A DNA stretch of 64,000 bases, taken from positions 1-64,000 of the forward strand of contig ONRP01000011.1 in assembly GCA_900320245.1 (NCBI GenBank), read 5' to 3'. The notes under the pieces are model-generated. The model saw nothing but the letters and a program-made list of their open reading frames with translations, was not told the origin of the DNA and made no database searches. The position numbers and the translations under genes are program-made. Shown piece by piece: positions 14,770 through 38,021 of this stretch. How positions within the stretch are numbered: position 1 is the stretch's first letter; each line of letters opens with the position of its first letter. The stretch comes from an uncultured Prevotellaceae bacterium (GTDB taxonomy: Bacteria > Bacteroidota > Bacteroidia > Bacteroidales > Muribaculaceae).

Positions 14770-15854
14770 TGCTGATTGTTTTTCAATAAATCATAAACGG
14801 GAAGCCCGATGGCTTCGCTGAGCCGTCCGCACAGGGTGTCCGAGTCAAGGACATAGCCGCTGGGCGACGTGGGGTTGACGGTGACGGCGATGAGTTTGCT
14901 CTTCTGGAGCACCCTGACGCGTCCTCCCGCCTTGATAAATAGCCGGAACTGCTGCGGAGTGACGAAAATCTTGGTAAAATCCCTCACCACCAGTTCCACC
15001 TGCTTGAGTTGCCGGTTCTTTCTCACCTTCTCGAGGAAACCATCGACCAACGCGCCTGCCACATAGAGTGTCTCGCAGTTGTCCATGCCCTCGAAATGGA
15101 TGTCCCTTGACAACGATGTCATCGTGTCCAGGCTCGTGAGCGCGCCGTCCTTGTCGATGAACCACAGTCCCTTCTCGAGCGGAGTGAGCATCTCGAGGTT
15201 GCGCTCACCGGTCAGGTCCAGGTTGATGAGGTCCACCACGTGGGCCGTCTTGCTCACCAGCGTATTCAGGTTGGCCGAATAGGCGGCTCCAGTTGCCAGA
15301 ATCATCGACTGGCTCACGGCAGGCGATGCCGAACTCATGCGCGACAATGCGCCGTCGATGACCACGAGGTCGATGTTGAAGCGCTGCCTCATCTCGCCCA
15401 TCCACCGCCTGAGGCCCGTTGCCGATGACGGTCCCGAAAGGAGGATTTTGCCTCCCGTGCGGGCCTGGGCTGTCACCACCCGTCCCAGCGAGGTGCTCTC
15501 GTCGCTCACGTCGATGAGTTCCGATACGAGTCTGCGCTGGCGGTAGTGTGCCTCGCTGGTGGCGAAATAGGTTCCCTCACGCAGGACGATTTCGGGTTTC
15601 TGAGTGCGGGTCACCTGGTCAACAGTCTCTCCATCAATGCCTATCGAGGTCACCGCGATGCGTCGGGAATTGACGGGCAGGCGGTCGAGCACATATTTCA
15701 GACACTCTGTCTTTCCCGTGTTCTTCTCCAGTCCCACGATAGACAGGCTATCGTAGCGCAATATGTCATTGATGAAGGGCACTCCCTGAACGCGATGATT
15801 CCGCTGGCGGCTGTGAAGGCACCCTGGGGCGCCCTCACAGTCCAACGGAGACAT
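14760..15854 (-). CDS. kamB: Lysine 5,6-aminomutase reactivase subunit
   Basis: About 364 residues. A P-loop (GLEKNTGKTEC) lies near residue 45, followed by TSIGIDGE and an LVVIDGALSR acidic segment, so it is a nucleotide-binding protein of the KamB type found beside KamC. The first ATG is at 15854; a TTG at 15860 is also in frame, and the first 30 residues are unlike the family core, so the true start may be later. It begins at the kamA stop codon and overlaps kamC. Function is inferred from cluster conservation: it probably works with KamC to keep the B12 enzyme active. Confidence 0.78.
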   Translation of the reverse strand: MSPLDCEGAPGCLHSRQRNHRVQGVPFINDILRYDSLSIVGLEKNTGKTECLKYVLDRLPVNSRRIAVTSIGIDGETVDQVTRTQKPEIVLREGTYFATSEAHYRQRRLVSELIDVSDESTSLGRVVTAQARTGGKILLSGPSSATGLRRWMGEMRQRFNIDLVVIDGALSRMSSASPAVSQSMILATGAAYSANLNTLVSKTAHVVDLINLDLTGERNLEMLTPLEKGLWFIDKDGALTSLDTMTSLSRDIHFEGMDNCETLYVAGALVDGFLEKVRKNRQLKQVELVVRDFTKIFVTPQQFRLFIKAGGRVRVLQKSKLIAVTVNPTSPSGYVLDSDTLCGRLSEAIGLPVYDLLKNNQQCN

Positions 15855-20614: not shown

Positions 20615-22159
20615 TTATTTCGCGGGCTGTTCTTCTGCGGGCGGCCGGATGCTTGATGCGTCGAAAGGCGTGGAAGCATTCTGTTCTATCAAACTCAGCA
20701 ATTCAGACTCTACTTGTTCCCATACATGGTGTTTTACAAGCCCCTGCAGGTCATAGATGCTACCACTATCGTCCTCTTTGGACTGAAATTGCTTGTATAT
20801 TTTTTCCCATTTCTGCCCTTGGTCACTATACACCTCATTCAAGTCGTTGAGAGTAAAACCATTGGGATAACGATCATGGATTACATCATTTCGCTTATCA
20901 AAACCACGATCTACAGCCGTATAGTAGGCACAGATGGCCACACCGTGTTGCCAAAAAAACGGATGTAACTTCTCATTATAACTTGCTGGGGGCTGGAACA
21001 ATTCAACTGTATCCTCTGGCTGTGTTACCGTTAATGAGTCGGTAGGAGTTTCAATCGGTTTTTCTATAGACGGTTGGGTCGACCTATTGAATGCCCATAT
21101 TGCTGCGCCCACGATGCAGAGTGTTGCCAAGGCTCCTAAAATCATAGCCAACGACTTGCCTTTTTTCTTGGTGGGTGGCTCAAGAGTCCCAGAAGGTGCG
21201 TCATCACCGGGCAAACGGGTGGTCTCGTCATCGAGTGCATCGGCAACTTTTGTGTCATCATTATTGGCGAGCGCTTGACGGTTGATCGCGTCGCGTATCT
21301 GCTGAACGCTTTGAGGTCGCTCTTTGCGATGCGTCTTCATGAGCCAGAGCACCAACTCACGCATGCGTGGGCTAACACCGCTCGGCATGGGCAAGGCCAC
21401 GCGCTTGTCGGGCGTCGTGTCGTCGTCAATCTCGCTTGGGATGGGCGGATGAACGCCCGTGAGCAGGTTAAACAAAGTCGCCCCGAGTGCATAAAAGTCG
21501 GTCCATGGGCCAAATATCTCATATCGCATCTCGATCTGTTCGCGGGGAGCATAACCATTGGTATAGGTCACCGCCGAGGTTGACATGGCACCGCCCTTGT
21601 CAGCATCTAACTGCTTGCTGGCACCGAAGTCGATGAGCCTGACCGTGCCGCCTCGATCCTGCATGATGTTGGCGGGCTTGAGGTCGAGGTGCCACAGCCC
21701 CTTGGCATGAACCGTCTGCAGGGCATCAAGCACCTGGTCAAGAACGTCAAGCACCTGTGCCTCGCTCATCGGCTGACCCGTGCGTTTGAGCCGCTCCTTG
21801 AGGCTCTCGCCGTCGATGTAGTCCATCACATAGTAAGTCGTGCCGTTCTCGTCAAACAGGTCGTGCACCTTGACAATGTGCTGATTGGTAAGCCGGTACA
21901 GCCTCATGGCCTCTTTCTTGAACTTCTCACGCTGTTTCTCATAGTCGGCCATGTTGCTGGAATTGCTCACGCGCACCATCGTGCTGTGTTCATCCCGCTC
22001 GTTAATGCCTTTCATGAAAAACTCCTTCACCGCGCAAGTCTCGTTAAAAGAGGTGTGGGTAGCCACATAGGTGTTGCCGAAGCCACCCTGCCCCAACACC
22101 TGCTTTATCACATACTTGCCGCCCTGCAGCGGCGTCCCTGGTTGTAATGCCTGTACCAT
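20615..22159 (-). CDS. Membrane Ser/Thr protein kinase with C-terminal periplasmic region
   Basis: 514 residues. Kinase domain about 15-290: glycine loop GQGGFG, catalytic Lys45 in AVKEFF, catalytic Asp159 in HLDLKPAN and DFG at 177-179. The residue before the catalytic Asp is Leu, not Arg, so it is a non-RD kinase. A Lys-rich stretch then a membrane helix (about 337-356) leads to a 158-residue C-terminal region with no recognised domain, probably periplasmic. It is the last gene of the cluster. Its first about 28 residues are nearly identical to those of the kinase at 25578-27101, suggesting duplication. Targets are unknown. Confidence 0.9.
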   Translation of the reverse strand: MVQALQPGTPLQGGKYVIKQVLGQGGFGNTYVATHTSFNETCAVKEFFMKGINERDEHSTMVRVSNSSNMADYEKQREKFKKEAMRLYRLTNQHIVKVHDLFDENGTTYYVMDYIDGESLKERLKRTGQPMSEAQVLDVLDQVLDALQTVHAKGLWHLDLKPANIMQDRGGTVRLIDFGASKQLDADKGGAMSTSAVTYTNGYAPREQIEMRYEIFGPWTDFYALGATLFNLLTGVHPPIPSEIDDDTTPDKRVALPMPSGVSPRMRELVLWLMKTHRKERPQSVQQIRDAINRQALANNDDTKVADALDDETTRLPGDDAPSGTLEPPTKKKGKSLAMILGALATLCIVGAAIWAFNRSTQPSIEKPIETPTDSLTVTQPEDTVELFQPPASYNEKLHPFFWQHGVAICAYYTAVDRGFDKRNDVIHDRYPNGFTLNDLNEVYSDQGQKWEKIYKQFQSKEDDSGSIYDLQGLVKHHVWEQVESELLSLIEQNASTPFDASSIRPPAEEQPAK

Positions 22160-22185
22160 ATTGTTATTTCGTTAATATTCAATCA

Positions 22186-22240
22186 TTAAAGTGAACTCGC
22201 AGCGAGGCGCAAGGCCTAATCAGCGACGTTCAGTCGATAG
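22186..22240 (-). pseudogene. Remnant of a SUMF1-domain C-terminus
   Basis: The minus strand encodes LRLAASSL and a stop at 22186-22212, the same ending and the same following sequence (TGATTGAATATTAAC) as the SUMF1 gene at 27128-28399, which also precedes a kinase gene. Upstream of it a shifted LGL and an in-frame TAG break the reading frame. It appears to be the tail of a lost SUMF1 paralogue. Confidence 0.6.
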
Positions 22241-22254
22241 GGTAAAAATCTATT

Positions 22255-23337
22255 TTATTTAGATTCAGATAAACCGAAATTGATAACGCTCTGATTCTGT
22301 ACCTTACTGCTTAAAGATTTATAGCCTACACATCTTACTTCAAGCCACTCACCACTGCTAACCTCAATAGAATATTCGCCATAAATTCCAGTTGTTGTCA
22401 CCCTATCTGTCCCTTTTACCCACACCTGCGCTCCAATTAACGGGTTCCCTTCGGTATCATGGACTGTTCCTGTTAATGTTACATTTGAGCGTTTCTTAAT
22501 CATTTTTGACTTATCAATGATGATATCAAGGCTGGACTGCCCAGGCTGGATAATAAAACTTTCATTATACTGGTAAATATTTCCATAAATTCCATCTATA
22601 GCACTCTTAATTGTCTCGTAGTTTACAATGAGTTCATCACCATCCTTAATATTCTCTATTGTGAAAACACCACCATAACCAGTATTGTGTATCTCGTTTG
22701 TGCGACTAACTTGAATAGTAACCCCAAAATTAAGAGGTTCTCCGCTATTATCAACAACCCTTCCCGATATAAATTTACGGGACATGGAGAATTTAAAATT
22801 GGTGTTATTCTCATTAACGGTTATTGTCGTGTCTAAATCGTGGTAGCACTTTGCAGTGAGTTTAACTGAATGAAGGCCAGGTTTAAGCATACGAGAGCCG
22901 CTCGCAGTTCCATAGTTAACACCATCAATAAACATCGTGGCATCACTCAAGTTGCTCGATAACGACACCTCAAAAGCCGTGGGATGATTACCATTGAATT
23001 TGCAAGAGTCGACGACTTGGCCGCAGGTTGGGCACTTGGGATGAGTGCCGTTATACTGGCATTTGTTGACAGGCAGTCCACAGGTGGAGCAGTTTTTGAC
23101 GGGGGCAGGATGCTTACCGCCGTATGGGCAGTTATCAATGGTCTTGCCACAGGTATGGCATTTTGCCTTGGGCTTGGAGGTCTCTTTCTTGGGCTTCGGG
23201 TGTTTGCCTTTGTACTGGCAGCGGCCAATGGGGAGGCCGCAGGTCGCGCATTTGTCGACCTTGACGGGGGGCAGCGCCATCGTTGTGGTGCTTGTCACCA
23301 GCACCATCATCAATAAGAGTACAAGATATTTTTTCAT
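22255..23337 (-). CDS. Secreted Cys/His-repeat protein with PEGA-like and carboxypeptidase-regulatory-like domains
   Basis: 360 residues. Signal peptide about 1-21. Then four copies of a Cys/His module with pattern CxxCGxxxxxCxYxGxHP (residues about 30-118). Next comes a PEGA-like beta segment (FIDGVNYGTASGS) and two beta-sandwich units, the second reading GTVHDTEGNPLIGAQVWVKG like the carboxypeptidase regulatory-like domain of SusC/TonB receptors. It is probably periplasmic or surface-exposed. The first 180 bp are nearly identical to the starts of the next two upstream genes, so the signal peptide and first module were copied. It lacks a SUMF1 domain. Confidence 0.75.
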   Translation of the reverse strand: MKKYLVLLLMMVLVTSTTTMALPPVKVDKCATCGLPIGRCQYKGKHPKPKKETSKPKAKCHTCGKTIDNCPYGGKHPAPVKNCSTCGLPVNKCQYNGTHPKCPTCGQVVDSCKFNGNHPTAFEVSLSSNLSDATMFIDGVNYGTASGSRMLKPGLHSVKLTAKCYHDLDTTITVNENNTNFKFSMSRKFISGRVVDNSGEPLNFGVTIQVSRTNEIHNTGYGGVFTIENIKDGDELIVNYETIKSAIDGIYGNIYQYNESFIIQPGQSSLDIIIDKSKMIKKRSNVTLTGTVHDTEGNPLIGAQVWVKGTDRVTTTGIYGEYSIEVSSGEWLEVRCVGYKSLSSKVQNQSVINFGLSESK

Positions 23338-23340
23338 AAG

Positions 23341-24354
23341 TCAACTTTTTTTCACAGGGTAGAAACTAAAGGGCAAGGCGCAAGCCGAGGTCGCTGCTGC
23401 GGCGAATCGGCGAGTCGACGATGCGGTTAGACACGCGGCAGAACCTGGCGGGTTCCAAAAGCCACCACGGCGCACACGGCGAGAGCCCGTTGAGGGGCCC
23501 GTCGGGTTGGTCTGAGAGCCGCTGCCGTAATCGCCATACCAGTCCTGACACCACTCCAACACGTTGCCGCTCATATCATATAGGCCCAACTCGTTGGGTG
23601 ACTTTTGTCCCACGGGATGGGTCGTGCTGCCGCTGTTGGATTTATACCACGCCACATCGCCCAGCGTGTTGCTGCCAGCATACTTGTAACCGCCGCCCTT
23701 GTTGCCGCCGCGGGCGGCATACTCCCACTCGGCTTCGGTGGGCAGGCGGTATTGCTTGCCAGTCATGTGGTTCAGTTTATTGATAAACATCTGGCAATCT
23801 TCCCAAGAAATGTAATACATGGGATAATTCGAGCCCTCACCGTGAAGCGGCCAAGATGGATTCCCCTTGTCGCTCTGCTGGCGGACTGTCGTCCCCATCA
23901 CGGCCTGCCACAGTTCCTGGGTCACCTCATATTTGCACAGGTAGAACCCCGACAAGGTCACCTGATGGGAGGGCCGTTCAGTTTCGGAAGCATCGCTGCC
24001 CTGCTCGCTCGTCGCGCCCATTGTGAACGTGCCGCCCTCGACCCACACCATGTTGGCCTCAAGGTCACGCAGTACTTGGTCACGCTGAGCCTGCGTCATG
24101 CCAGCAGAGCGGGTGGTTGTCGATTGGTTGCTGCTGCCACGATTGGGCTTAGAAGTCTCCTTCTTGGGTTTCGAAGTCTCCTTCTTGGGTTTCGAGGTCT
24201 CTTTCTTGGGCTTCGGGTGTTTGCCTTTGTACTGGCAGCGGCCAATGGGGAGGCCGCAGGTGGCGCATTTGTCGACCTTGACGGGGGGCAGCGCCATCGT
24301 TGTGGTGCTTGCCACCAGCACCATCATCAATAAGAGTACAAGATATTTTTTCAT
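23341..24354 (-). CDS. Secreted SUMF1/FGE-like protein with one Cys/His module; C-terminus frameshifted
   Basis: 337 residues as read. Signal peptide, one Cys/His module, then three KPKKETS repeats and a SUMF1/formylglycine-generating-enzyme-like domain (VEGGTFTMG, YEVTQELWQAVMG, YRLPTEAEWEYAARGG, LGLYDMSGNVLEWCQDW). After RRGGFW the frame changes: the family ending FCRVSNR...LGLRLAL is present in another frame and would stop at 23366, while this frame runs on to 23341. Compared with the paralogue at 24383, four bases are missing between TGG and TTC. The SUMF1 fold here is unlikely to be a sulfatase activator, since the paired copper-binding cysteines of true FGE are not evident. It may be a ligand-binding (C-type-lectin-like) domain. 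Confidence 0.7.
   Translation of the reverse strand: MKKYLVLLLMMVLVASTTTMALPPVKVDKCATCGLPIGRCQYKGKHPKPKKETSKPKKETSKPKKETSKPNRGSSNQSTTTRSAGMTQAQRDQVLRDLEANMVWVEGGTFTMGATSEQGSDASETERPSHQVTLSGFYLCKYEVTQELWQAVMGTTVRQQSDKGNPSWPLHGEGSNYPMYYISWEDCQMFINKLNHMTGKQYRLPTEAEWEYAARGGNKGGGYKYAGSNTLGDVAWYKSNSGSTTHPVGQKSPNELGLYDMSGNVLEWCQDWYGDYGSGSQTNPTGPSTGSRRVRRGGFWNPPGSAACLTASSTRRFAAAATSACALPFSFYPVKKS
23366..23478 (-). other. Variable C-terminal region of SUMF1 copy 1 (DGR-like)
   Basis: Compared codon by codon with 24383-24496, the stretch after CRVS differs mainly at codon positions 1 and 2 while the third base is kept, for example AAC/ATC, ATC/GAC, GTC/CGC, ATT/GTT, CGC/AGC, AGC/CTC and GAC/TAC. Flanking framework codons (CGT GGT GGC, TTC TGC CGC GTG TCT, GGC TTG CGC) are unchanged. 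This is the pattern of adenine-templated mutagenesis. Confidence 0.55.
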
Positions 24355-24382
24355 AAGTCAACTTTATTTCACAGGGTAGAAA

Positions 24383-24496
24383 CTAAAGGGCGAGGCGCAA
24401 GCCGAGGTAGCTGAGGCGGCTAACCGGCGCATAGCGGTCGCGGATAGACACGCGGCAGAACCCGGCGATGCTGCCCCAACTGCCACCACGGCTCAC
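24383..24496 (-). other. Variable C-terminal region of SUMF1 copy 2 (DGR-like)
   Basis: Counterpart of 23366-23478 in the second tandem gene; in frame here. Encodes RGG-S-W-xxxxx-FCRVS-x-R-(variable)-LGLRLAL, the layout of C-terminal variable regions in SUMF1/lectin-fold targets of diversity-generating retroelements. Confidence 0.55.
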
Positions 24497-25354
24497 ACGG
24501 AGAGAGCCCGTTGAGGGGCCCGTCGGGTTGGTCTGAGAGCCGCTGCCGTAATCGCCAAACCAGTCCTGACACCACTCCCCCACGTTGCCGCTCATGTCGT
24601 ACAGGCCCAAATCGTTGGGTAACTTTTGGCCCACGGGATGGGTCGTGCTGCCGCTGTTGGATTCATACCACGCCACATCGCCCAGCGTGTTGCTGCCAGC
24701 ATACTTGTAACCGCGGCTCTTGTTGCCGCCACGGGCGGCATACTCCCACTCGGCCTCGGTGGGCAGGCGGTATTGCTTGCCCGTCAACCGGTTCAGTTTA
24801 CCGATAAACGTCTGGCATTCCTCCCACGAGATGCAATACATGGGATAGTTTGCGCCCTCGCCGCGAAGCGGCCAAGATGGATTCGCCTTGTCGCGCTGCT
24901 GGCGGACTGTCGTCCCCATCACGGCCTGCCACAGTTCTTGGGTCACCTCATATTTGCACATGTAGAACCCCGACAAGGTCACCTGATGGGAGGGTTTCTC
25001 GTTACTAAAGGCATCGCTGCCCTGTTCGCTCGTCGCGCCCATCATGAGTGTGCCGCCCTCGACCCTCACCATGTTGGCCTCAAGGTCACGCAGTACTTGG
25101 TCACGCTGAGCCTGCGTCATGCCAGCAGAGCGGGTGGGGGTCGATTGGTTGCCGCTGCCACGATTGGGCTTAGAAGTCTCCTTCTTGGGTTTCGAAGTCT
25201 CTTTCTTGGGCTTCGGGTGTTTGCCTTTGTACTGGCAGCGGCCAATGGGGAGGCCGCAGGTGGCACATTTGGTGACCTTGACGGGGGGCAGCGCCATCGT
25301 TGTGGTGCTTGCCACCAGCACCATCATCAATAAGAGTACAAGATATTTTTTCAT
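24383..25354 (-). CDS. Secreted SUMF1/FGE-like protein with one Cys/His module
   Basis: 323 residues from the ATG at 25354 (a second ATG lies directly before it). Signal peptide MKKYLVLLLMMVL, one Cys/His module, two KPKKETS repeats, then an intact SUMF1 domain ending RVSRGGSW...FCRVSIR...LGLRLAL. This is the intact member of the tandem pair and about 90 percent identical to the other copy before the variable end. By family it could be an oxidase-like or, more likely here, a binding domain displayed outside the cytoplasm. It lies downstream of a kinase gene and upstream of its duplicate in the same direction. Confidence 0.8.
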   Translation of the reverse strand: MKKYLVLLLMMVLVASTTTMALPPVKVTKCATCGLPIGRCQYKGKHPKPKKETSKPKKETSKPNRGSGNQSTPTRSAGMTQAQRDQVLRDLEANMVRVEGGTLMMGATSEQGSDAFSNEKPSHQVTLSGFYMCKYEVTQELWQAVMGTTVRQQRDKANPSWPLRGEGANYPMYCISWEECQTFIGKLNRLTGKQYRLPTEAEWEYAARGGNKSRGYKYAGSNTLGDVAWYESNSGSTTHPVGQKLPNDLGLYDMSGNVGEWCQDWFGDYGSGSQTNPTGPSTGSLRVSRGGSWGSIAGFCRVSIRDRYAPVSRLSYLGLRLAL

Positions 25355-25577
25355 CATTTCAATTGTTTAATTTAAGTTTCGCGAGTAGATAACTTGCTCA
25401 CTGCTTAATGTTTAAGGGTTAAAGGATAATGACTTGTCTCTTGAAAAACCGAAAAATTTCCAGCAAGTGCTATCATCAGTCGTTTCACTGTCCATCTTTA
25501 ACCATTAAACTTTATCCTTTAACCTCAGGTTTTTAAAGTGGTTCGGCCACTTTAGAAACTTGAATAAATTGCCAAAT
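25355..25577. other. Intergenic region with inverted repeats, no gene seen
   Basis: Contains a perfect 13-bp inverted pair GGTTAAAGGATAA (25417-25429) and its complement (25512-25524), and a short hairpin TAAAGTGG/CCACTTTA at 25534-25554 just past the kinase stop. It also holds GTAGATAACTTGCTCACT at 25384-25401, which recurs with one base missing at 20460-20476. Confidence 0.6.
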
Positions 25578-27101
25578 CTACAGTTTGTTGCCGTTTTTGT
25601 CATACCAGGTGGTCTTGCCGGCATTGATGTCGGAGAACAAGCCCCTGGTATAAGAGCCGTCGGCGGCAAGGGTGAAACGTCCCTCGTAGGGCTCATCATT
25701 CTTGAACGAGCCGACGAAGGTGTCGCCGTTGGCATAGGTGTAACGGATGTTGTCTCCCGAGATCTTGCCGGTCTCAAACGTGCCCTCGCATTTGTCGCCG
25801 TTATCAAAAAATGCGGAGCCCTTTCCATCAGGCAAGTTGTCTTCATTAATCTCACCCGTATAAGTATAACTACCATTGGATGATTCCACATGCATCGAAG
25901 TCACCTTGAGTTCGCTTGTTGAAGGGCTCTCAGTGGCCTCGGTCTCGAAGGCGGCAACCGGCTCGTCGGGGTGATTGTTGCTGCTGTGATAGATGGCGTA
26001 TCCACCCCCTATCAGTACCAGCCCCGCACAGGCCGATAGGAGCATCACCTTGAGGTTGCTTTTGGGCTTAGGATCGATGACGGTCTCAACCTGCTTCTCG
26101 CGGGCGGACTTAGGCTTCTCGCGGGCGGGTTTTGTCTTCTCGCCCTTGGGTTTTGTTTTCTCGGGGACAGGCTGGAGGGGAACGGTCTCCTCGTCGACAA
26201 GCAGAGCCATCTCGGGGCGAGGCTCTGTCTGCTCATCGAGCGGGGCCTTGGGGTCGGCCAGGAACATGGCTACGCTTGAGGGCCTGTCGGCTATGCTGAT
26301 GGTCATGGCGCGCTCGATGAGAGCCCGCCCAGGCTGCGGAACGGGCACGGGATAATCCATCCTGGTGCCACTCACGCGAGAGACGGCGGTGGGAGGCCGC
26401 TGCCCCTCAAGCAGATAGTAGAGCGTGGCCCCAAGGGCATACACGTCGCTTGCGGGCGAGTAGCCCTCGATGCCCTGGTACTGCTCGACGGGCGCAAAGC
26501 CCTGGCTCAGGCCTATCGGGGTCGTGCTCGTGGCATTACCCTGGGCGTCATAGTTCTTGCTGATGCCAAAGTCGATGAGCACGGCATTGCCGTTGCGGTC
26601 AAGCAGGATATTGTCGGGCTTGATGTCGTAGTGGCAGATGTGGCACTTGTCGTGCATATACTGCAAGGCACTGGAAATCTGACGGATGTAGCGCATCGCG
26701 CTATCCATGTCCAACACACCCTCGCGCTCCACCAGGGCCTTGAGCGACCCACCCGGCATATAGGGCATCGAGTAATAGACGGTCTTGTTCTCCTCAAACA
26801 CGTCGATCACACCGATGATGTGCGGGTGGTCGAGGCCGGCCAGCGTGCGTGCCTCCTTGTGGAACTTCTTGCGGAACTGCGCCACCTGGGCGGCACTGCC
26901 CGTCGTGGGCACAGTCATCGCACTGGTCTGACCGTCACGCAGGCAGTTGTCACGCATGAAGAACTCCTTGATGGCAACGTCGCGGCCGAGCGAAACCTGC
27001 TCGGCCAGGTAAGTGATGCCGAAGCCACCCTGCCCCAGCACCTGCTTAATCACATACTTGCCGCCCTGCAGCGGCGTCCCCGGTTGTAATGTCTGTGCCA
27101 T
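25578..27101 (-). CDS. Membrane Ser/Thr protein kinase with C-terminal MORN repeats
   Basis: 507 residues. Kinase domain with GQGGFG, Lys45, HYDIKPDN (Asp159) and DFG at 177-179; again a non-RD kinase. A Lys/Pro/Arg-rich linker with KPKGEKTKPAREKP-type repeats (about 314-336) precedes one membrane helix (about 351-371). The C-terminal part holds MORN-like repeats (YTGEINEDNLPDGKG, DKCEGTF, GDTFVGSF), which would lie outside the cytoplasm. MORN repeats often bind lipids or proteins, so this could be the sensor or effector half. It sits between two SUMF1 genes. Confidence 0.9.
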   Translation of the reverse strand: MAQTLQPGTPLQGGKYVIKQVLGQGGFGITYLAEQVSLGRDVAIKEFFMRDNCLRDGQTSAMTVPTTGSAAQVAQFRKKFHKEARTLAGLDHPHIIGVIDVFEENKTVYYSMPYMPGGSLKALVEREGVLDMDSAMRYIRQISSALQYMHDKCHICHYDIKPDNILLDRNGNAVLIDFGISKNYDAQGNATSTTPIGLSQGFAPVEQYQGIEGYSPASDVYALGATLYYLLEGQRPPTAVSRVSGTRMDYPVPVPQPGRALIERAMTISIADRPSSVAMFLADPKAPLDEQTEPRPEMALLVDEETVPLQPVPEKTKPKGEKTKPAREKPKSAREKQVETVIDPKPKSNLKVMLLSACAGLVLIGGGYAIYHSSNNHPDEPVAAFETEATESPSTSELKVTSMHVESSNGSYTYTGEINEDNLPDGKGSAFFDNGDKCEGTFETGKISGDNIRYTYANGDTFVGSFKNDEPYEGRFTLAADGSYTRGLFSDINAGKTTWYDKNGNKL

Positions 27102-27127
27102 ATCGTTATTCAGTTAACATTCAATCA

Positions 27128-28399
27128 TTAAAGTGAACTGGCAGCAAGCCGGAAACCAAGGTTACCAAACTGATGTTCCGGACGCCGGATGTTACTTCTA
27201 TACGACACACGGCAGAGCCATGCGGAATCCGACCAGCCTCCACCACGGTTCACACGATAAGTGCCAGTAGCGGGGCCAGTAGGATTCGTCTGCGATTTAT
27301 TACTATAGCTATCATAGCAGTCCTGAACCCATTCCCATACATTACCCGACATGTCATACAGGCCCAACTCGTTAGCCTTCTTAGTGCCAACGGGGTGCGT
27401 TATACCACCATCGCTATCCTTGCACCATGCCACATCATCGATTTTATCGCTACCACTGTACATGTAGCCATTGCTGCGGTTACCGCCACGAGCAGCATAC
27501 TCCCATTCCGCATCAGTCGGAAGGCGGTAATGTTTACCCGTCAACTGGTTCAGTTTGGTAATGAATTTTTGGCAATCATACCACGAAACAAATGTCACAG
27601 GACGGCTCAAGTTGCCCGTGAAATTGCTTGGGTTGTTGCCCATTACCGCCTGCCATAATTCCTGTGTCACCTCATACTTGCAGATGTAGAAACTACTTAG
27701 TGTTACCTGATGAGCGGGTTTCTCAGTATATCCCGCATTTTTATCATCAGAGCCCATCATAAACGTTCCGCCATCAACTTTCACCATATTATCTTCGAGT
27801 TTACTAAGCATCCGGTTGAGTCGCAATTCTTGCTCGGATGGGTGATTGCCACCGTATTGACAATTCTCGATAACTTTGCCGCAAGTTGAGCATTTCGGAT
27901 GTGCGCCCCGATATTGACAATCATCGATTATTTTGCCACAGGTTGAGCATCTCGGATGATAACCTCCATATTGGCATTGTTCTATGACCTCGCCGCAAGT
28001 TGAGCACTTGGGATGCTTGCCACCGTACTGGCATTTGTCCACTGTCTTGCCGCAGGTACTGCATTTAGCCGGGTGCTTGCCTTTATATTGGCATTTGTCG
28101 ATGGTTTTGCCACAAGTCTTACATTTAGCCGGGTGCTTGCCTTTGTATTGGCATTTGTCGATGGTTTTGCCACAAGTCTTACATTTAGCCGGGTGCTTGC
28201 CTTTGTATTGGCACTTGTCGATGGTCTTGCCACAAGTTGAGCACTTCTTTGGCGCTGTAGGGTGCTCGAATTTGTAAGGGCATTCGCTGTATGGCTTGCC
28301 GCAAGTGGGGCATTTCTGCTGCGGAACTTGGGCTGTAGCCACCATGGATGCTGATGCCAGCACCAACAGCGACAATAGGATATGTAACGTCTTTTTCAT
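27128..28399 (-). CDS. Secreted protein with eight Cys/His modules and a SUMF1-like domain
   Basis: About 423 residues from the ATG at 28399 (another ATG two codons earlier). Signal peptide, then eight consecutive modules CxTCGxxxxxCxYxGxHP of 19-23 residues (about residues 30-190), the middle ones nearly identical. A SUMF1 domain follows (VDGGTFMMGSDDKN, YEVTQELWQAVMGNNP, YRLPTDAEWEYAARGG, MSGNVWEWVQDC, LCRVSYR...NLGFRLA). Three Cys and one His per module, evenly spaced, suggest one metal per module or disulfide-stabilised beads. Function is unknown; the array probably works as an extended stalk or metal-binding region outside the cytoplasm. Confidence 0.8.
   Translation of the reverse strand: MKKTLHILLSLLVLASASMVATAQVPQQKCPTCGKPYSECPYKFEHPTAPKKCSTCGKTIDKCQYKGKHPAKCKTCGKTIDKCQYKGKHPAKCKTCGKTIDKCQYKGKHPAKCSTCGKTVDKCQYGGKHPKCSTCGEVIEQCQYGGYHPRCSTCGKIIDDCQYRGAHPKCSTCGKVIENCQYGGNHPSEQELRLNRMLSKLEDNMVKVDGGTFMMGSDDKNAGYTEKPAHQVTLSSFYICKYEVTQELWQAVMGNNPSNFTGNLSRPVTFVSWYDCQKFITKLNQLTGKHYRLPTDAEWEYAARGGNRSNGYMYSGSDKIDDVAWCKDSDGGITHPVGTKKANELGLYDMSGNVWEWVQDCYDSYSNKSQTNPTGPATGTYRVNRGGGWSDSAWLCRVSYRSNIRRPEHQFGNLGFRLAASSL
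27843..28320. repeat. Coding tandem repeat, about 57-60 bp period
   Basis: Encodes the eight Cys/His modules. Units 28081-28140 and 28141-28200 differ at only one base, so the array has recently expanded or been homogenised; outer units are more diverged. Confidence 0.85.
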
Positions 28400-28500
28400 T
28401 GTCATTCTTATGGTTCTATCTTTAACTGGAGTAGTCTTAAATCAACCTGATAAGAGACTGAAGCATTGGCGGCACAGTTGTCAGCCACATGACATTAAAT

Positions 28501-29220
28501 TTAGTTGGTGCCCTGAAGCTTGAAGGTCACAGGCAGGGTGTACCATACACGCACGACCTGACCATTCTGGCGGCCCGGGGTAAACTTGGGCAACGACTTA
28601 ACGACACGGATTGCTTCCTGATCGAGGTCCTTGTCCACTGAACGGGCAACCTTCACCTCACCTACTCGACCATCTTTTTCTACAACGAATTGCAGGATGA
28701 CCTTACCTTGAATATTCTTTTTGGCTGCCTCTGGCGGATATTGGAGGTGTGAACCCAAATACCTCATCAGTGCAGCATCGCCACCAGGGAACTGGGGCAT
28801 CTGCTCTACTGAAGAGTATATCCTCTCGGAGTCATTCTTCTTGGCGGGCTTTTGCTCAGCGGGCTTTTGCTCAACAGGCTTTTGCTCAATGGACCTCTCC
28901 ATGACGGTTTCCTCTTTTTGAGGTTTGGTCTCGTGACGGTCTTCATTACCGGTCTTGTTATCTTTCTGACCAGAAACTCTCTTGGATTTCTGACTACCGC
29001 CTGTGACCTTGCCATTGGTTGAGTTTTTCTTCGATACAGCCTGCTTCTTGCCTTTATTGCTTGTCGGGGTCGATTGCTTTGGGTGCTTGAATTTGTTCGG
29101 GCACTCGCTGTATGACTTGCCACAAGTGGGGCATTTCTGCTGCTTGACTTGGGCCGTAGCCAACATGGCTGCTGATGCCAACACCAGCAGTGCCAATAGG
29201 ACAAATATTGTCTTTTTCAT
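28501..29220 (-). CDS. TonB C-terminal-domain protein with N-terminal Cys/His module
   Basis: 239 residues. Signal peptide, one Cys/His module (CPTCGKSYSECPNKFKHP), a basic low-complexity linker, three EQKP repeats (about 113-127), then a TonB C-terminal domain (FPGGDAALMRYL, LQYPPEAAKKNIQGKVILQFVVEKDGRVG, FTPGRQNGQVVRVWYTLPVTF). Unlike usual TonB it has a cleavable-looking signal peptide rather than a plain membrane anchor, so it may be a periplasmic TonB-like protein. It begins 20 nt after the kinase at 29241. Its first 45 residues match the start of the eight-module protein. Confidence 0.8.
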   Translation of the reverse strand: MKKTIFVLLALLVLASAAMLATAQVKQQKCPTCGKSYSECPNKFKHPKQSTPTSNKGKKQAVSKKNSTNGKVTGGSQKSKRVSGQKDNKTGNEDRHETKPQKEETVMERSIEQKPVEQKPAEQKPAKKNDSERIYSSVEQMPQFPGGDAALMRYLGSHLQYPPEAAKKNIQGKVILQFVVEKDGRVGEVKVARSVDKDLDQEAIRVVKSLPKFTPGRQNGQVVRVWYTLPVTFKLQGTN

Positions 29221-29240
29221 TGTTCTTTCTACTTATTAGG

Positions 29241-32186
29241 TTATCCTATTTTATTGATTACCTTACCGTTCTTGTTATACCATGTTCCGTATTTTGGGCG
29301 ATTGTTCTCAAATGTGCCATCGAAGTAGGATCCATCAGGTAGGGAGTAACGCCCCTTCACAAACACATTATTCTGTATCGTACCCTCAAACTTGTCACCG
29401 CTCTTGAAGTAGTACTTGCAATTATCACCGTCGGCATTGCCATTCTTGAAACTGCCTTCGAGCCTTTCACCGTTATCAAACTCCACCGTGCCGTCACCGT
29501 CGGGCATCCCGTCAGCATCGACAGAACCAGAGTAGGTGCAGGATGTACCATCGGCACAAAGCGGAATAACGACTTGCTTGTTCTCCACAACGACCTTCGA
29601 CTGCTCGGCAACCTCTTCGGCGGCAGCCTCGACAGCCTCTTTGTTGACCTCCTCATCTGACTGAGTTGGCGTTGGATCGCTATTGTGTAACAGCGCATAA
29701 CCACCCACCACGAGCAGCAAACCGGCACAAGCAGCAAGAATGACAGGCCATAACTTGCGGGGTTTGGATTCGGTTTGAGAGTCAGTTTCGTATTCGTGGA
29801 CGACTTTTACAGGTTCAGGTTTAACCACGGTTACAGGCTCATTCGTAGGTTCCGGCTGGAGTTTGGTTGCGGCTTGGGACTCGGTCTTGACCTGGGTCTC
29901 GTCGGTAGCAGGCAGCACGACCACAGCGGCAGGAACACTGACCTGAAGTGTTGCCGTCTCGCTCCTCAGTTCATCTTTATCCTGAGCCGTTGCGGTAACT
30001 TGATAGGTCATCGCACGCTTCTGCCGTTTGAACGTGTAGGGCACTTGAATCTTCTTGCCGTCGAGCAATACTTGAACTGCGCCCTTTCCTGTCACGTTGA
30101 GCGAGAACGTCTTCGCGTCATAGTTGATGACAGGGACGGCAGTCTGACGCAGTGCAGGAACGACCACACGCAGGCGGGCCTCTTCGCTTATCAACTCACC
30201 GTTGACCTGGGCGGTAGCGGTGACATTGAAGGACTGTTCCTCGCGTTGCTGCTTGAACGTGTAAGGTACTTGAATCTTCTTGCCGTCGAGCAATACTTGA
30301 ACTGAGCCCTTTCCTGTCACGTTGAGTGTGAATGTCTTCGGGTCAAAGTTGATGGATGGAGCGGCAGTTTGGCGTAATGCAGGAACGACCACACGCAGGC
30401 GGGCCTCTTCGCTCATCAACTCACCGTTGACTTGGGCGGTAGCGGTGACATTGAAGGACTGTTCCTGGCGTTGCTGCTTGAACGTGTACGGCACTTGAAT
30501 CTTCTTGCCGTCGAGTAACACTTGAACTGAGCCCTTTCCTGTCACGTTGAGCGTGAAGGCTTTTGCATCATAATTGATGGAGGGTGCGGCCGTTTGGCGC
30601 AGTGCGGGAACGACCACACGCAGATGCGCTTCTTCGCTTTTTTCTTCACCATCGACCTGGGCGGTAGCAGTGACATTGAAGGACTGTTCCTGGCGTTGCT
30701 GCTTGAATGTATAAGGTACTTGAATCTTCTTGCCGTCGAGCAGCACTTGAAGTTCTCCCTTTCCTGTCACGTTGAGCGTGAACGTCTTCGCATCGTAGTT
30801 AATGGATGGAGCGGCCGTCTGACGCAGTGCAGGAACAACCACACGCAGGTGCGCTTCTTCGCTTTTCACTTCACCATCGACCTGGGCGGTAGCGGTGACA
30901 TTGAAGGACTGTTCCCGCATCTGTTGCGGGAAGGTGCAGGGCACTTCTATCTCCCTGCCGTCAAGATAGACCTTAACCGTCCCTTTGCCCGACGCATTGA
31001 GCGTAAAACTTTTAGGATCGAAACTGATGGTTGGTGCAGCAGTCTGTTTAAGGGCCGGCACCACTATCATCATTCCCACTTCCTCGCTTCTTACTGCTCC
31101 ATTAGCCTGGGCCGTGGCAGTGACATGGTAGGTCATCTCACGCATCTGCGGCTGGAGTTTGCAGGGCACTTGAATCGGTCTACCATCGAGAAACACCATA
31201 ATTGTTCCTTTGCCCATCACATTAAGCACCAAGGCTTTCTGGTCAAAGTCAATGACTGGTGGCGGAGTCTGGTTGGGAGTGGGAGGATTCAGGAACTCCT
31301 TGATCTGCTGTACATTCTGCGGTCGCTGCTTGCGGTTGGTCTTGATGAGCCAAAGCACCAAGCCACGCATCAGCGGACTCACTTTGGCAGGCATGGGCAA
31401 GGCCTCATGCTTGTCGGGGCTGGTATCGTCATCGATGTCACCAGGCATGGGCGGATGCTTGAGTGTGAGCAGGTTGTAAAGCATGGCACCCAAGGCATAA
31501 AAGTCGGTCCAAGGGCCAAATTTATCATAACTCCTCTCCATCTGCTCACGGGGCGCATAGCCGTTGGTATAGGCCACGGCCGAAGTAGAGATGGCTCCTC
31601 CCGTGTCAGAATTGAACTGCTTGCTGGCACCGAAGTCGATGAGTTTGACGACGCCCGACTTATCCACCATCACATTGGCAGGCTTGAGGTCCATGTGCCA
31701 CAATCCCTGGCCATGCACCTCCTGGAGCGCATCAAGCACCTGGTCGAGCACTTTACGGATTTCTGACTCAGCCATGGGTTGGCCGGTACGCTGGAGGCGC
31801 TCCTTGAGGTTCTCGCCATTGATGAAATCCATAACATAATAGGATGTACCGTTCTCATTGAACAGGTCATACACCCTGACAATATGCACGTTATGGAGTT
31901 TACGCAGGCGCAGTGCCTCCTTTCTGAACTTCTCCAGTTGCGCATTGAATTCTTCGGTCTTTCCTGCATTGCTCACCCTGACGCTGCTGCTGTCGCTGCC
32001 GCGTTCAGAGATATCCTTCATAAAGAACTCCTTGATGGCATAGGTCTCATTGAAAAGGATGTGAGTTGCCACGTAGGTGTTGCCGAAGCCGCCACTGGAC
32101 AGATAGCCGTCTATACGGTAGTTGCCGTGCAGGATAGATCCTGTCGGCAACATTGATTCTAGGTTGATATGTTTATCACTCGCCAT
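29241..32186 (-). CDS. Large membrane Ser/Thr kinase with six 75-residue repeats and MORN repeats
   Basis: 981 residues. Kinase domain about 20-298 (SSGGFGNTY, AIKEFF, HMDLKPAN, LIDFGASK; non-RD). Six tandem 75-residue repeats follow (about 310-759), each with LNVTGKG, VLLDGKKIQVPYTF, NVTATAQ and LRVVVPALRQTAA, predicted beta-sandwich units. One membrane helix is at about 809-831 and C-terminal MORN-like repeats follow (YSGSVDADGMPDGDG, RLEGSFKNG, KFEGTIQNN). With a single membrane helix after the repeats, the repeats would lie on the cytoplasmic side, which is unusual for such domains. It is followed by the TonB-like gene and preceded by the PP2C phosphatase gene. Confidence 0.9.
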   Translation of the reverse strand: MASDKHINLESMLPTGSILHGNYRIDGYLSSGGFGNTYVATHILFNETYAIKEFFMKDISERGSDSSSVRVSNAGKTEEFNAQLEKFRKEALRLRKLHNVHIVRVYDLFNENGTSYYVMDFINGENLKERLQRTGQPMAESEIRKVLDQVLDALQEVHGQGLWHMDLKPANVMVDKSGVVKLIDFGASKQFNSDTGGAISTSAVAYTNGYAPREQMERSYDKFGPWTDFYALGAMLYNLLTLKHPPMPGDIDDDTSPDKHEALPMPAKVSPLMRGLVLWLIKTNRKQRPQNVQQIKEFLNPPTPNQTPPPVIDFDQKALVLNVMGKGTIMVFLDGRPIQVPCKLQPQMREMTYHVTATAQANGAVRSEEVGMMIVVPALKQTAAPTISFDPKSFTLNASGKGTVKVYLDGREIEVPCTFPQQMREQSFNVTATAQVDGEVKSEEAHLRVVVPALRQTAAPSINYDAKTFTLNVTGKGELQVLLDGKKIQVPYTFKQQRQEQSFNVTATAQVDGEEKSEEAHLRVVVPALRQTAAPSINYDAKAFTLNVTGKGSVQVLLDGKKIQVPYTFKQQRQEQSFNVTATAQVNGELMSEEARLRVVVPALRQTAAPSINFDPKTFTLNVTGKGSVQVLLDGKKIQVPYTFKQQREEQSFNVTATAQVNGELISEEARLRVVVPALRQTAVPVINYDAKTFSLNVTGKGAVQVLLDGKKIQVPYTFKRQKRAMTYQVTATAQDKDELRSETATLQVSVPAAVVVLPATDETQVKTESQAATKLQPEPTNEPVTVVKPEPVKVVHEYETDSQTESKPRKLWPVILAACAGLLLVVGGYALLHNSDPTPTQSDEEVNKEAVEAAAEEVAEQSKVVVENKQVVIPLCADGTSCTYSGSVDADGMPDGDGTVEFDNGERLEGSFKNGNADGDNCKYYFKSGDKFEGTIQNNVFVKGRYSLPDGSYFDGTFENNRPKYGTWYNKNGKVINKIG
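29910..31259. repeat. Six tandem 225-bp coding repeats
   Basis: Encodes the six 75-residue units of the 981-residue kinase. Units 3-5 are highly similar at DNA level; the outer ones are more diverged. Such an array can change copy number by recombination. Confidence 0.85.
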
Positions 32187-32198
32187 AGGCTTTTAAGG

Positions 32199-33719
32199 TT
32201 AAGCAGATGTTGTATCTGAAGTTTCGTCACTACGCACTGGGGGTGTGGAAGGTTGCAGTCGCGGCTTTCCCATCTGTTTCCCTCCTCTTCTTATAATATT
32301 GGGATCTGTTTGGCCTTGTTGACCAGCAGGATTCTCAACCTGTTGCTGTTGCGGCTGAGGTTGATTAGCCTGTTGCTGTTGTTGCGGCTGAGGTTGCTCG
32401 CGTTGCTGACTCTCTTGCTGGATGTGGCGCTCGATGTTTTTGGGAGGTTCAGGTTTCACTTCCCACACTTCATTACGTTTGGGTTCGACGGGCATGGTAA
32501 TCGTGTCGTTGCCAGTATTGGCGGCATCTTCCTTTTTGTTGCGGTCGCTCAACATCAGATAAGCGACCACGGCAACTGCTGCCAACGCAAGCAGCACTAG
32601 GATCCACACACGCGATGAAGGCTTGCGAGACGGCACGGTCTCGGCAGCAGGTTGTTGACTGGCAGGCTGCGATTCCTTGACCACAGGCTCGGGTTGCTGC
32701 TGAGCAATTGGTTCAGGCTGCTGTGGAGCAACGGGTTCGGACTGCAGGGGAATGACGGGCTCGGGTTTTGACTCGTTAACAGGCTGTGAAGGCACCGGGG
32801 TTGCCTGAACAGGGGCAACAGGTTCTGCCTGAACGGGGGCCTGCTGCACCACAACAACACCCTCGTTAGACGGCACGGCATCAATCACAGCGGGTTTGAT
32901 GTTAAGGGCGTTATATCGCGACGTCTTCTCCTCATTACCGGTAATCAGACTATCGGCCTGCTCACGCTGCACATCCTCGACCTGAATCAGATAGGCGCTG
33001 TGATTGTCACTGTTGCCCTTAGTGGCATCAATCAGTTGCTGACGCTTGACCTCGTTACTCTCATTCGATGAGAACAGACGCAGAATCTCGTCATCTTCCA
33101 TCTGCTCAAGCATGCCGTCGCTGCACAGATAGAAGTAATCGCCCTTTTCGATATCGGTAATGTGGATAACATCGGGCCTGACACGGTTTTCTTCACCAGG
33201 CTGAACGGCGCGGGTGATGACATTCTTGCGGGGATAGTTCTTCATCTCCTCAAGGGAAATCTCACCACTCTGGTAAAGGTCGAAAACGAGCGAGTGGTCA
33301 CGGCTGACGTAGAGGATTTCCTTGCCGGGGCGAATGTGATAGATGCGACTGTCGCCAATGTGCGCCGCCGTCACGCCACCATGGTGGATATAGATGAGCG
33401 TGAGCGTCGTGCCCATCTTCTTGTAGTTGCCGTCATCGGCCTTATCAAGGATCTGATAGGCATAGGCGATGGCGTTGGCAAGCATCTCATCGCGGAACGG
33501 CTCGGCGGGGTCAATGTTACGAGCAAAGTAGTCGGCAATGCCCTTGGTAAACTCACCGCTGGCTACCTCGCCGTGCTCATGGCCGCCCATACCATCACAC
33601 ACGACGAACAGGCGGTCATCGGAAGTGGCTTTGCCCAACGCGGGGAAGATGGTATCCTCTTGATTGCCTCGCTGGCCCTCATCCCAAATGGCCTGCGGCT
33701 GTTTAATCTTGATAATCAT
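32199..33719 (-). CDS. Membrane PP2C-type Ser/Thr phosphatase
   Basis: 506 residues. The PP2C domain occupies about 1-250, with the metal-binding signatures RGNQEDTIF, VCDGMGGHEHGE, HIGDSRIY and LCSDGM. A Pro/Gln/Glu-rich linker then leads to a membrane helix (about 367-386) and a Gln/Pro-rich C-terminal tail (QQQQQ, PQPQQQQ) outside the cytoplasm. It lies 12 nt upstream of the large kinase gene and would be its natural counterpart, removing phosphates from kinase or FHA partners. Confidence 0.92.
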   Translation of the reverse strand: MIIKIKQPQAIWDEGQRGNQEDTIFPALGKATSDDRLFVVCDGMGGHEHGEVASGEFTKGIADYFARNIDPAEPFRDEMLANAIAYAYQILDKADDGNYKKMGTTLTLIYIHHGGVTAAHIGDSRIYHIRPGKEILYVSRDHSLVFDLYQSGEISLEEMKNYPRKNVITRAVQPGEENRVRPDVIHITDIEKGDYFYLCSDGMLEQMEDDEILRLFSSNESNEVKRQQLIDATKGNSDNHSAYLIQVEDVQREQADSLITGNEEKTSRYNALNIKPAVIDAVPSNEGVVVVQQAPVQAEPVAPVQATPVPSQPVNESKPEPVIPLQSEPVAPQQPEPIAQQQPEPVVKESQPASQQPAAETVPSRKPSSRVWILVLLALAAVAVVAYLMLSDRNKKEDAANTGNDTITMPVEPKRNEVWEVKPEPPKNIERHIQQESQQREQPQPQQQQQANQPQPQQQQVENPAGQQGQTDPNIIRRGGKQMGKPRLQPSTPPVRSDETSDTTSA

Positions 33720-33811
33720 AGTGGTAATGTTAATGAGTAGTGGTCAGGTTTTCCCTTGAGGTTGTGCTAACGAAAAGCAGTTCCCTCAAAGGTCGCCTAA
33801 ATCTATTGTTA

Positions 33812-34384
33812 TCACATCGTGGTGTTCTGCCAACTGGGAGCCATGGGCTCGATGACAAAAACCACCGTGGTGTCACCCATCTGGATGCGGTCTCCGTGAT
33901 GAAGGACGATAGAGTCGCCCGCCTTTAAGGGCACACCGTTGACCAGCGTAGCATTCTTGTTCTTGTAGTTGGCGATATCGGCCTTCATGTGGCCTTGCAG
34001 GTTTGCGACATTGATGATCACGTGTTCACGGCTCATGTACATGTCGTTGGTGTTGAGGGGGACATCGGCCTGCTGGGTCTGAGCCCTGCGACCGACACGG
34101 TTAGCACCCACCTTCAAGGGATACTTCATTCCATTGCACGTGAGCGCACAACACATCTGCAAGGTCTCCTTGTAATCAGCGAGTTGGGTATGGTACTCGT
34201 TGCGTTTGGGGCTGGATGACAGTTCAGTGGGCGCTTCGTTATCATTCTTCACCACATAGAAGGGCACCAGCAGGTTCTTGCCACAGTTGGGGCACTGGAT
34301 TTGGCGCTGTGGTTCATTATTAACGTTGGTGACCTCGAGGATGACTCCACATCCCGGGCATTTGGCTTTAATCGTCTTGCTCAT
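33812..34384 (-). CDS. FHA-domain protein with N-terminal zinc ribbon
   Basis: 190 residues without membrane segment. N-terminal zinc ribbon CPGCG...CPNCG (residues 9-34). C-terminal FHA domain (about 84-180): GANRVGRRAQ, MSREHVIINV and TLVNGVPLKAGDSIVLHHGDRIQMGDT, carrying the conserved Gly-Arg, Ser-x-x-His and Asn-Gly elements needed for phosphothreonine binding. It would read out phosphorylation by the kinases of the cluster. It overlaps the caspase-like gene by 17 nt. Confidence 0.9.
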   Translation of the reverse strand: MSKTIKAKCPGCGVILEVTNVNNEPQRQIQCPNCGKNLLVPFYVVKNDNEAPTELSSSPKRNEYHTQLADYKETLQMCCALTCNGMKYPLKVGANRVGRRAQTQQADVPLNTNDMYMSREHVIINVANLQGHMKADIANYKNKNATLVNGVPLKAGDSIVLHHGDRIQMGDTTVVFVIEPMAPSWQNTTM

Positions 34385-35123
34385 TGTTGTATTCTTTGGT
34401 GTTCTGGTTCCAGGTAATAATTGGCATATTGCCGTTGAATTTGCCCCACATTACTGGATGCTGGGCTCCGTTAGTCGACTTGATGACACCGTCGTGGCAG
34501 AAGTCGTAGATCTCGCGAGCCGATATCGAGCGGTCACGGTTGACATCAGCACCGCCGCGCAGGCCTCGCTCCAAGTAGATGGTAAACATGCTGTTGCTAT
34601 AACGCGACTCTCGCGACTTCTCATCGGAGCGCGACGAGAGGAAGAACATCACGTCCTCGTTCTTCACGGCACGCTGCCATGATTTGGAGCCGCGCATCTT
34701 GCCCGCGTAGCAGGCGTCGGCAATAACTACCTTGGTGCGTGCGGGGCACTTCTTCATAATCTCGAGGATGCGGTCGAAGGACAGCACGCCGTCATAGCAA
34801 GCGAGGCCCTTTTTGGTTCCATGACCACTGAAGAAGAAAATCACTGCATCGTTGGGGCCTGCGTTAGCAAAGGCTCGTGACATCGCCGATATCACCGCAT
34901 CGCGAGTGGCGTCGCCATCGGTGATAATCGAGACGGTGCTGTTGCCGTTCTTGTCATAGACGTTGGCTATCGTGCGGGCGTCATTAGCACTCACGCGCAG
35001 CGAATTTACGCCCTTGGGGTACTTGCTAAGCCCCACACACATCACGTAGTTGCGTGCATCGGCCACGAACGGCATTACGGTCACCGCGAGCAGCAGCATT
35101 AGGCTGATGATACTTCGTTTCAT
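34368..35123 (-). CDS. Secreted caspase-like cysteine peptidase (C14 family)
   Basis: 251 residues. Signal peptide about 1-23. The caspase/metacaspase fold is clear: YVMCVGLSKY at the first strand, catalytic His101 in FFFSGHGTK and Cys138 in VIADACYAGK. Secretion distinguishes it from most bacterial caspase-like proteins, which are cytosolic effectors. It overlaps the FHA gene and follows the His-rich gene by 23 nt, so it belongs to the same transcript. Substrates are unknown. Confidence 0.88.
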   Translation of the reverse strand: MKRSIISLMLLLAVTVMPFVADARNYVMCVGLSKYPKGVNSLRVSANDARTIANVYDKNGNSTVSIITDGDATRDAVISAMSRAFANAGPNDAVIFFFSGHGTKKGLACYDGVLSFDRILEIMKKCPARTKVVIADACYAGKMRGSKSWQRAVKNEDVMFFLSSRSDEKSRESRYSNSMFTIYLERGLRGGADVNRDRSISAREIYDFCHDGVIKSTNGAQHPVMWGKFNGNMPIITWNQNTKEYNNEQDD

Positions 35124-35146
35124 CGTCTTGGGTGCGTTATTGTGAA

Positions 35147-36073: not shown

Positions 36074-36123
36074 AATAGTAAAGTTTTAAAGAATGAATAA
36101 TTTATTGTTTTGATTTGATGATG

Positions 36124-36156
36124 CAAAGTTAACACATCGGGAAAACTTATGCCAAA
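36124..36156 (-). promoter_or_regulatory. Promoter of the main kinase/phosphatase/SUMF1 transcript
   Basis: Minus strand: TTTG (36153-36156), 21-nt spacer, TAACTTTG (36124-36131), 50 nt before the ATG at 36073. No gene is seen in 36074-36332. Confidence 0.7.
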
Positions 36157-36332
36157 TTTTCCAGCCCTTTTTGGATGAAATACCCCGATTAATGTATGAA
36201 ATGTTCTGACAGCATGAAAACCCACAAAAAATCCTCAAAAACAAACGCCTAGTATCACACAATAAACACCCATGGCCACTCATGCAGTTCCTCTCGCATG
36301 AATGGCCACGAGTGATAACTTTTATTCATTAT

Positions 36333-38015: not shown

Positions 38016-38021
38016 GCCAGC

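Follow-up and report, generated by a model that had tools for sequence, protein, structure and literature searches.

Target genes of a diversity-generating retroelement (DGR) that persist without the element are known from Treponema denticola. According to the accessible part of that report, strains lacking both the reverse transcriptase (RT) and the template repeat (TR) keep targets with an FGE-sulfatase domain, the variable regions (VRs) of which differ from the TRs of other strains mostly at adenines; the authors consider these RT-less targets likely leftovers, and the system includes an HRDC gene (PMC4891356). As such leftover targets have already been described, the kind of system discussed here is known. 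In the available sections of the corresponding papers, cyanobacterial remote variable proteins are CLec targets dispersed in the genome, often together with Ser/Thr kinases (PMC7517822), incomplete loci and targets of the Thiohalocapsa PB-PSB1 DGRs are explained by action in trans or by loss (PMC10907252), and the DGRs of Bacteroides are prevalent and act on tip pilins (PMC12632263). The tandem SUMF1 genes analysed in the present study and their relatives share with the T. denticola DGR the FGE-sulfatase targets, the HRDC accessory gene, the remote targets and the VR carriers without RT and TR. However, as far as the accessible text of that report allows the comparison, they differ from it in belonging to a Bacteroidales genus close to Prevotellaceae MAGs, in their kinase and PP2C neighbourhoods, and in a pattern that spans species and not strains (PMC4891356). 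Judged from the same partial sources, the remote targets of cyanobacteria are linked to DGRs within the genome that carries them, whereas none was found here (PMC7517822), and Thiohalocapsa belongs to another phylum and has targets that include STAND NTPase and further conflict-system architectures (PMC10907252). Our literature search of titles and abstract openings, with preprints and most subscription journals outside its scope, brought up no description of orphan SUMF1 targets for this group, and within that same scope it is the spread over a whole genus that lacks a precedent.

The window, that is, the whole stretch of 64,000 nucleotides that was analysed, comprises bases 1-64000 of contig C34 in an assembly of 3.02 Mb (73 contigs, 90.4% complete) from a gut-type Bacteroidales bacterium. 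The closest named loci are those of the uncultured Prevotellaceae MAGs RUG755 and RUG367, with 72% protein identity. Two SUMF1 genes, here copy 1 and copy 2, are arranged head to tail on the minus strand:

24383 to 25357, minus strand: SUMF1 copy 2, 324 aa, an intact open reading frame (PF03781, E 7.6e-50; TvpA, 2y3c, E 1.5e-39), with a signal-peptide-like start, a CxxC...C..H zinc-ribbon-like repeat, the FGE-sulfatase domain and an intact C-terminal variable region
24383 to 24508, minus strand: VR of copy 2, 126 nt, in register with the relatives' TRs (both aligned)
23341 to 24354, minus strand: SUMF1 copy 1, 337 aa, frameshifted in the VR, the reading frame continuing to an unrelated tail; the PF03781 match ends at residue 302
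23366 to 23487, minus strand: VR of copy 1, 122 nt, out of frame past the deletion
about 23451 to 23452, minus strand: 4-nt deletion in copy 1 relative to copy 2, between TGGAAC and CCGCC, its exact placement ambiguous

Copy 1 also has a signal-peptide-like start, a CxxC-type repeat and the Pfam FGE-sulfatase domain. The same CxxC-type repeat occurs in the gene at 22255-23337, the first 171 bp of which are 95% identical to copy 2 at the DNA level and the C-terminal part of which is PEGA/carboxypeptidase-regulatory-like, pointing to shuffling of a 5' module. Judged from sequence comparison, we consider it likely that copies 1 and 2 are paralogous orphan or remote targets of a DGR of the SUMF1/HRDC kind.

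A first-pass annotation of this DNA had described the two genes as near-identical with divergent tails. The divergence of the tails is confirmed; the bodies, however, are not identical and differ at 63 positions. Its count for the tails was exact: of the 13 differences within the 14 codons after CRVS, 12 affect codon positions 1 or 2 and a single one affects position 3, and the frame codons, reported as unchanged, are indeed identical between the copies. From RGG to the end, the 33 comparable codons show 11, 6 and 2 differences at positions 1, 2 and 3, respectively, versus 17, 16 and 30 in the 288 aligned body codons before RGG (Fisher p 0.0034). Overall, the two VRs are 79% identical. The copy-1 codons of that count are in register with copy 2 and are untranslated, the 4-nt deletion having been overlooked. 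Because copy 1 as assembled lacks these 4 nt, its reading frame departs from CRVS...GLRLAL and ends at 23341 with an unrelated tail. The codon pattern in copy 1 is best understood as having arisen before the frameshift or together with it.

Complete DGRs with SUMF1 targets were found in the same genus. An RVT_1 search of 61 genomes, the host genome included, gave two matches near SUMF1 matches, on contig C30 of genome G005 and contig C23 of genome G009, and a script for repeats whose mismatches fall on adenines detected a TR directly behind the RT in both. The order of genes in G005 (locus L090) is PP2C, Ser/Thr kinase, SUMF1 with VR, HRDC gene, RT and TR; that in G009 (locus L091) is SUMF1, HRDC gene, RT, TR and a second SUMF1, the RT and HRDC identities being given by Pfam RVT_1 and HRDC. 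In the three VRs examined from these genomes, 90/90 non-A sites and 15-17 of the 33 adenines agree with their own TR, departures from which are thus limited to its adenines. From their codons, the TRs translate as SNRVNRGGSWNNNARNCRVSNRNNN...NRNNNLGLRLA. Behind the second SUMF1 gene of G009 there is a second, truncated HRDC fragment (C23, about 15253-15399; 1254-1397 of L355), about 92% identical over 48 residues, as if the cassette had been duplicated and had decayed. Directly behind the second G009 VR (L091, 7111-7200) lies an inverted repeat of 41 nt (76% complementary), possibly a homing hairpin; no inverted repeat was found directly behind the VR of copy 1 or copy 2, and one of three control VRs has a large one.

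The copies of the window were read on these templates. Since the adenine sites are taken from TRs of other species, confinement of the differences to adenines is approximate. On the G005 TR, copies 1 and 2 differ at 18/31 A sites versus 4/91 others (p 6e-10); on the G009 TR, the figures are 17/31 versus 5/91 (p 1.4e-8). The four exceptions among the 22 differences on the G005 TR are two third-position C/T changes and two changes on G sites, and the latter would fit if we assume that a lost template had adenine there. Copy 2 itself matches the G005 TR at 78/90 non-A sites and 10/33 A sites (p 4e-9). By blastn, the window copies match the G005 TR at 1.4e-8 and fail E 1e-6 against the G009 TR.

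Codons made by a DGR derive from AAY, so that the pyrimidine third base is kept and K, E, Q, M and W are never produced. Many binding-site residues have such codons anyway, and the tests were therefore run with amino acids held fixed, the third-base test of the template-Asn columns using the window's own codon usage. The third base is C in 19/20 codons of the 10 template-Asn columns common to both copies (p 9e-5), and these 10 comparable columns hold a single third-position difference (p 0.0096 for at most one). Residues with a free third base have pyrimidines in 13/13 cases in the window copies versus 9.3 expected (p 0.008); for copy 2 alone, the degenerate-codon test gave p 0.05. The template columns of copy 2 contain no K, E, Q, M or W, and neither do those codons of copy 1 that are in register. 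Across the genomes other than G005 and G009, the host genome included, 207/240 third bases were pyrimidines versus 168 expected (p 1e-10), and the frame columns, as a control, gave 253/452 versus 252 expected (p 0.48). Pooling seven tails of the host genome gave 26/35 versus 24.3 expected, which is not significant (p 0.32); the signature in this genome thus belongs to few genes. The adenine-templated signature proposed at first pass is supported by the TRs of the same genus, by these amino-acid-controlled codon statistics and by the best matches to TvpA. Without any retroelement, duplicated SUMF1 paralogues could also diverge through ordinary positive selection on their ligand-binding loops, as the C-terminus of the fold is a natural variable face and some tails of the host genome hold residues unreachable from AAC. 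However, the variable codons of the window copies keep C as the third base while the residues change, the five residues that a DGR never produces are missing from the template columns of either copy, and the differences fall on adenines of true TRs, so that we regard selection as highly improbable.

The host genome contains 19 FGE matches, and tails could have been swapped among these SUMF1 paralogues by recombination or gene conversion without fresh mutagenesis. Recombination does occur, since three adjacent genes share their 5' ends with about 95% identity over 171 bp. However, no near-identical donor tail was found in the host genome: copy 2, apart from its match to copy 1, reaches at best 80% identity over 64 nt and 66% identity over 154 nt, and copy 1, apart from its match to copy 2, reaches 74% over about 60 nt. 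Moreover, the differences affect single, dispersed codons with identical frame codons in between, and a swapped tail would itself bear the DGR signature. We therefore consider tail swapping very unlikely as the source of the pattern.

In the 90%-complete assembly, there were no RVT_1 matches at E 0.001 and no matches to the RT of the relatives used as query; the HRDC protein likewise gave no match at E 0.001, the one tblastn match to HRDC, on contig C38, having E 0.14. DNA searches of the same assembly with both VRs and the two relatives' TRs found no template-like copy, and no tblastn match to any of two RTs and two HRDC proteins fell in the 64-kb window at E up to 1. The absence of RT and template from the window, reported at first pass, agrees with the tblastn and DNA searches, and the genome-wide check proposed there likewise found neither in the 73 contigs. 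Three candidates were rejected: an RT adjoining genes within the window, as tblastn was empty; a template at C60:1622, which lies inside a methylmalonyl-CoA-mutase-like gene according to its translation and is a chance match; and a template at C57:20964, which is a truncated SUMF1. The last is a 97-aa SUMF1 remnant without most of the domain (contig C57 of the host genome G000, about 20955-21248; 6956-7249 of L096). Because RT and template are absent from the assembled genome, the copies look like leftovers or distant targets. An active DGR in the host genome is not supported, as the assembled 90% contains no RT, HRDC gene or TR and as copy 1 carries a frameshift; that the retroelement has been lost or is absent from the genome is, in our judgement, somewhat the more probable case.

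Alternatively, a complete and possibly active DGR might act in trans from the tenth of the genome that is missing from the assembly, or from a plasmid or phage left outside the bin. The incompleteness of the assembly (90.4%, 73 contigs) and the near identity of the two VRs at non-A sites would be in keeping with this. DGR loci may also break assemblies: in 6/9 fetched family loci of the RT clade, no more than about 2.1 kb separate the RT from a contig end, and assembly drop-out is thus a real possibility. However, the RTs of G005 and G009 are farther than 2.1 kb from a contig end. Furthermore, the RT clade occurs in 2/101 genomes of the genus, namely the genome that supplied the query and one with a match of 53% identity; the further matches listed are at most 38% identical. 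Among the 48 genus genomes that are at least 90% complete, the RT clade is present in two (G005 and G009) and TR-like DNA in 16, those two included; the contrast between 2/48 and 16/48 is hardly explained by chance drop-out alone. The nearest phage and plasmid RTs are all less than 60% identical, the viral-contig relatives found are at most 33% identical, and no relative of copy 2 was found on viral contigs. On balance, an unassembled DGR seems to us possible though not probable. In G096 and G109, where the 8 kb fetched contain no RT match, a truncated HRDC gene stands behind a SUMF1 gene, and G114 has a third truncated HRDC fragment near a contig start, without RT. These look like decay of the cassette.

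The signature extends across the genus. We parsed 69 SUMF1 genes, drawn from best-match lists and not at random; 15 with tails not 35 codons long were excluded from the tail-codon tests, and the out-of-frame tail of copy 1 kept this gene out of the 69. A pyrimidine stands in all 12 template-Asn columns in 25 of the 54 tails of 35 codons (15 genomes), 4 of these 25 coming from G005 or G009, versus 0.1 expected from body usage without amino-acid control. In a per-genome table of paralogues (36 of 94 equal-length pairs, with body identity at least 0.70; pairs not independent), the third-position share of differences was lower in the tail than in the body in 11/11 genomes with usable pairs, and overall amounted to 366/1229 in tails versus 2433/4496 in bodies (36 pairs). 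The paralogue tails of related species thus show the opposite of third-position-dominated change. Per codon, not all genomes have a lower third-position rate in the tail (in G015, 0.37 in the tail and 0.34 in the body), so that it is the excess at positions 1 and 2 that stands out.

When the G009 TR was used as a blastn query, 30/101 genus genomes matched, G005 and G009 included, and the host genome gave no match at E 1e-6. In the 28 matching genomes without the RT clade, each represented by its best TR-like locus, mismatches were more frequent at A sites than elsewhere in 28/28 (503/924 versus 531/2520 in total). These loci were placed by non-A matches, which could favour the DGR reading, and the result holds when they are placed by total score (497/924 versus 537/2520). 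In the 14 template-Asn codons of the 28 loci, mismatches were found at 412/784 of positions 1 and 2 and at 58/392 of position 3. VR-type tails only were found at L340-L345, which were rejected as templates without RT. Tails common to several species, namely those of C38 in the host genome and G016, of G019, G114 and G120, and of G035 and G036, are inherited and not undergoing rewriting. The 35-residue tails at C38:70639-71289 of the host genome and on C77 of G016 (L201) are one residue apart and have the full pyrimidine signature (12/12 in the C38 tail), as expected of a frozen VR. DGR-made variable regions are accordingly recognisable without the retroelement, and searches keyed to the RT may undercount DGR-shaped proteins, as is suggested by the 2/101 genomes with the RT clade versus the 30/101 with TR-like DNA. 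The genus-wide spread and the truncated cassettes make gain, loss and freezing of DGR targets testable.

The likely course of events at the window locus is that an RT, either a past one or one from a cassette outside the assembly, copied an A-rich template while misreading adenines, and that the mutated cDNA took the place of roughly the final 125 bp in both genes. Around twelve NNC codons on the FGE/C-type-lectin binding face would thereby have been rewritten, while the frame codons stayed as in the template. The loss of 4 nt in copy 1 may have come from the same event. Such mutagenic homing, and the subsequent loss of the retroelement, are what we infer from the traces left in the tails and in the relatives. 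On a wider scale, and as a tentative and rather doubtful proposal, the SUMF1 genes of the genus may form a standing pool of receptor-like proteins, in which a rare mobile RT-HRDC-TR cassette arrives, rewrites many dispersed tails in trans and is lost again, leaving frozen variants, some conserved between species, wired to kinase/PP2C signalling; diversification would then be episodic and not continuous.

The best PDB match of copy 2, by sequence and by fold, is the variable protein TvpA (variable protein 1) of T. denticola (2y3c), the predicted model having a mean pLDDT of 68. The C-terminal stretch of the window protein aligns with TvpA; however, identity in the fold alignment is 34%, and the window proteins add N-terminal zinc-ribbon-like repeats. 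The genes upstream of the pair include the following:

25578 to 27101, minus strand: Ser/Thr kinase (Pkinase) with C-terminal repeats, directly upstream of copy 2
27128 to 28405, minus strand: third SUMF1 gene, with zinc-ribbon-like repeats and a tail of other length, the codons of which by eye are not obviously DGR-like
29241 to 32186, minus strand: Ser/Thr kinase, sharing 53% identity over the kinase domain with the kinase that neighbours the G005 DGR
32199 to 33719, minus strand: PP2C-type phosphatase, sharing 61% identity over 275 aa with the PP2C that precedes the G005 target by two genes
36333 to 38015, minus strand: kinase-SUMF1 fusion, its tail not DGR-like

The kinase at 25578 to 27101 is related to the kinase upstream of the G005 DGR target (33% identity over its length). 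The tail of the kinase-SUMF1 fusion has 6/12 pyrimidine third bases and two K/E/Q/M/W residues at template-Asn columns. Placed beside Ser/Thr kinases and a PP2C phosphatase, the products of copies 1 and 2 may be exported ligand sensors that feed kinase signalling. The island at 20615-38702 is reminiscent of eukaryote-like signalling or conflict islands: it combines Ser/Thr kinases and a PP2C phosphatase with four SUMF1 genes and a caspase-like peptidase (34368-35123). A fifth FGE match lies at 39859-40401, and an FHA-like gene was recognised in the neighbourhood by reading its translation.

Other RTs of the genus and of the wider family were also inspected for repeat pairs. No adenine-biased repeat pair was found at L092 and L093, the loci of RTs in G033 and G006, respectively, or at L094. 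In the family loci of the SUMF1-DGR RT clade (L260-L268, from G209, G163, G432, G384, G155, G200, G353, G361 and G264, respectively), an adenine-biased TR/VR pair was present in 9/9 fetched. A second kind of DGR exists in the genus, at L271 (G013:C1), L272 (G015:C9), L273 (G001:C141) and L274 (G004:C272), with RTs of about 440-460 aa and TR/VR pairs mismatched at adenines. The VR of L272 ends a protein of 1485 aa, in which by eye there is no SUMF1-like tail motif.
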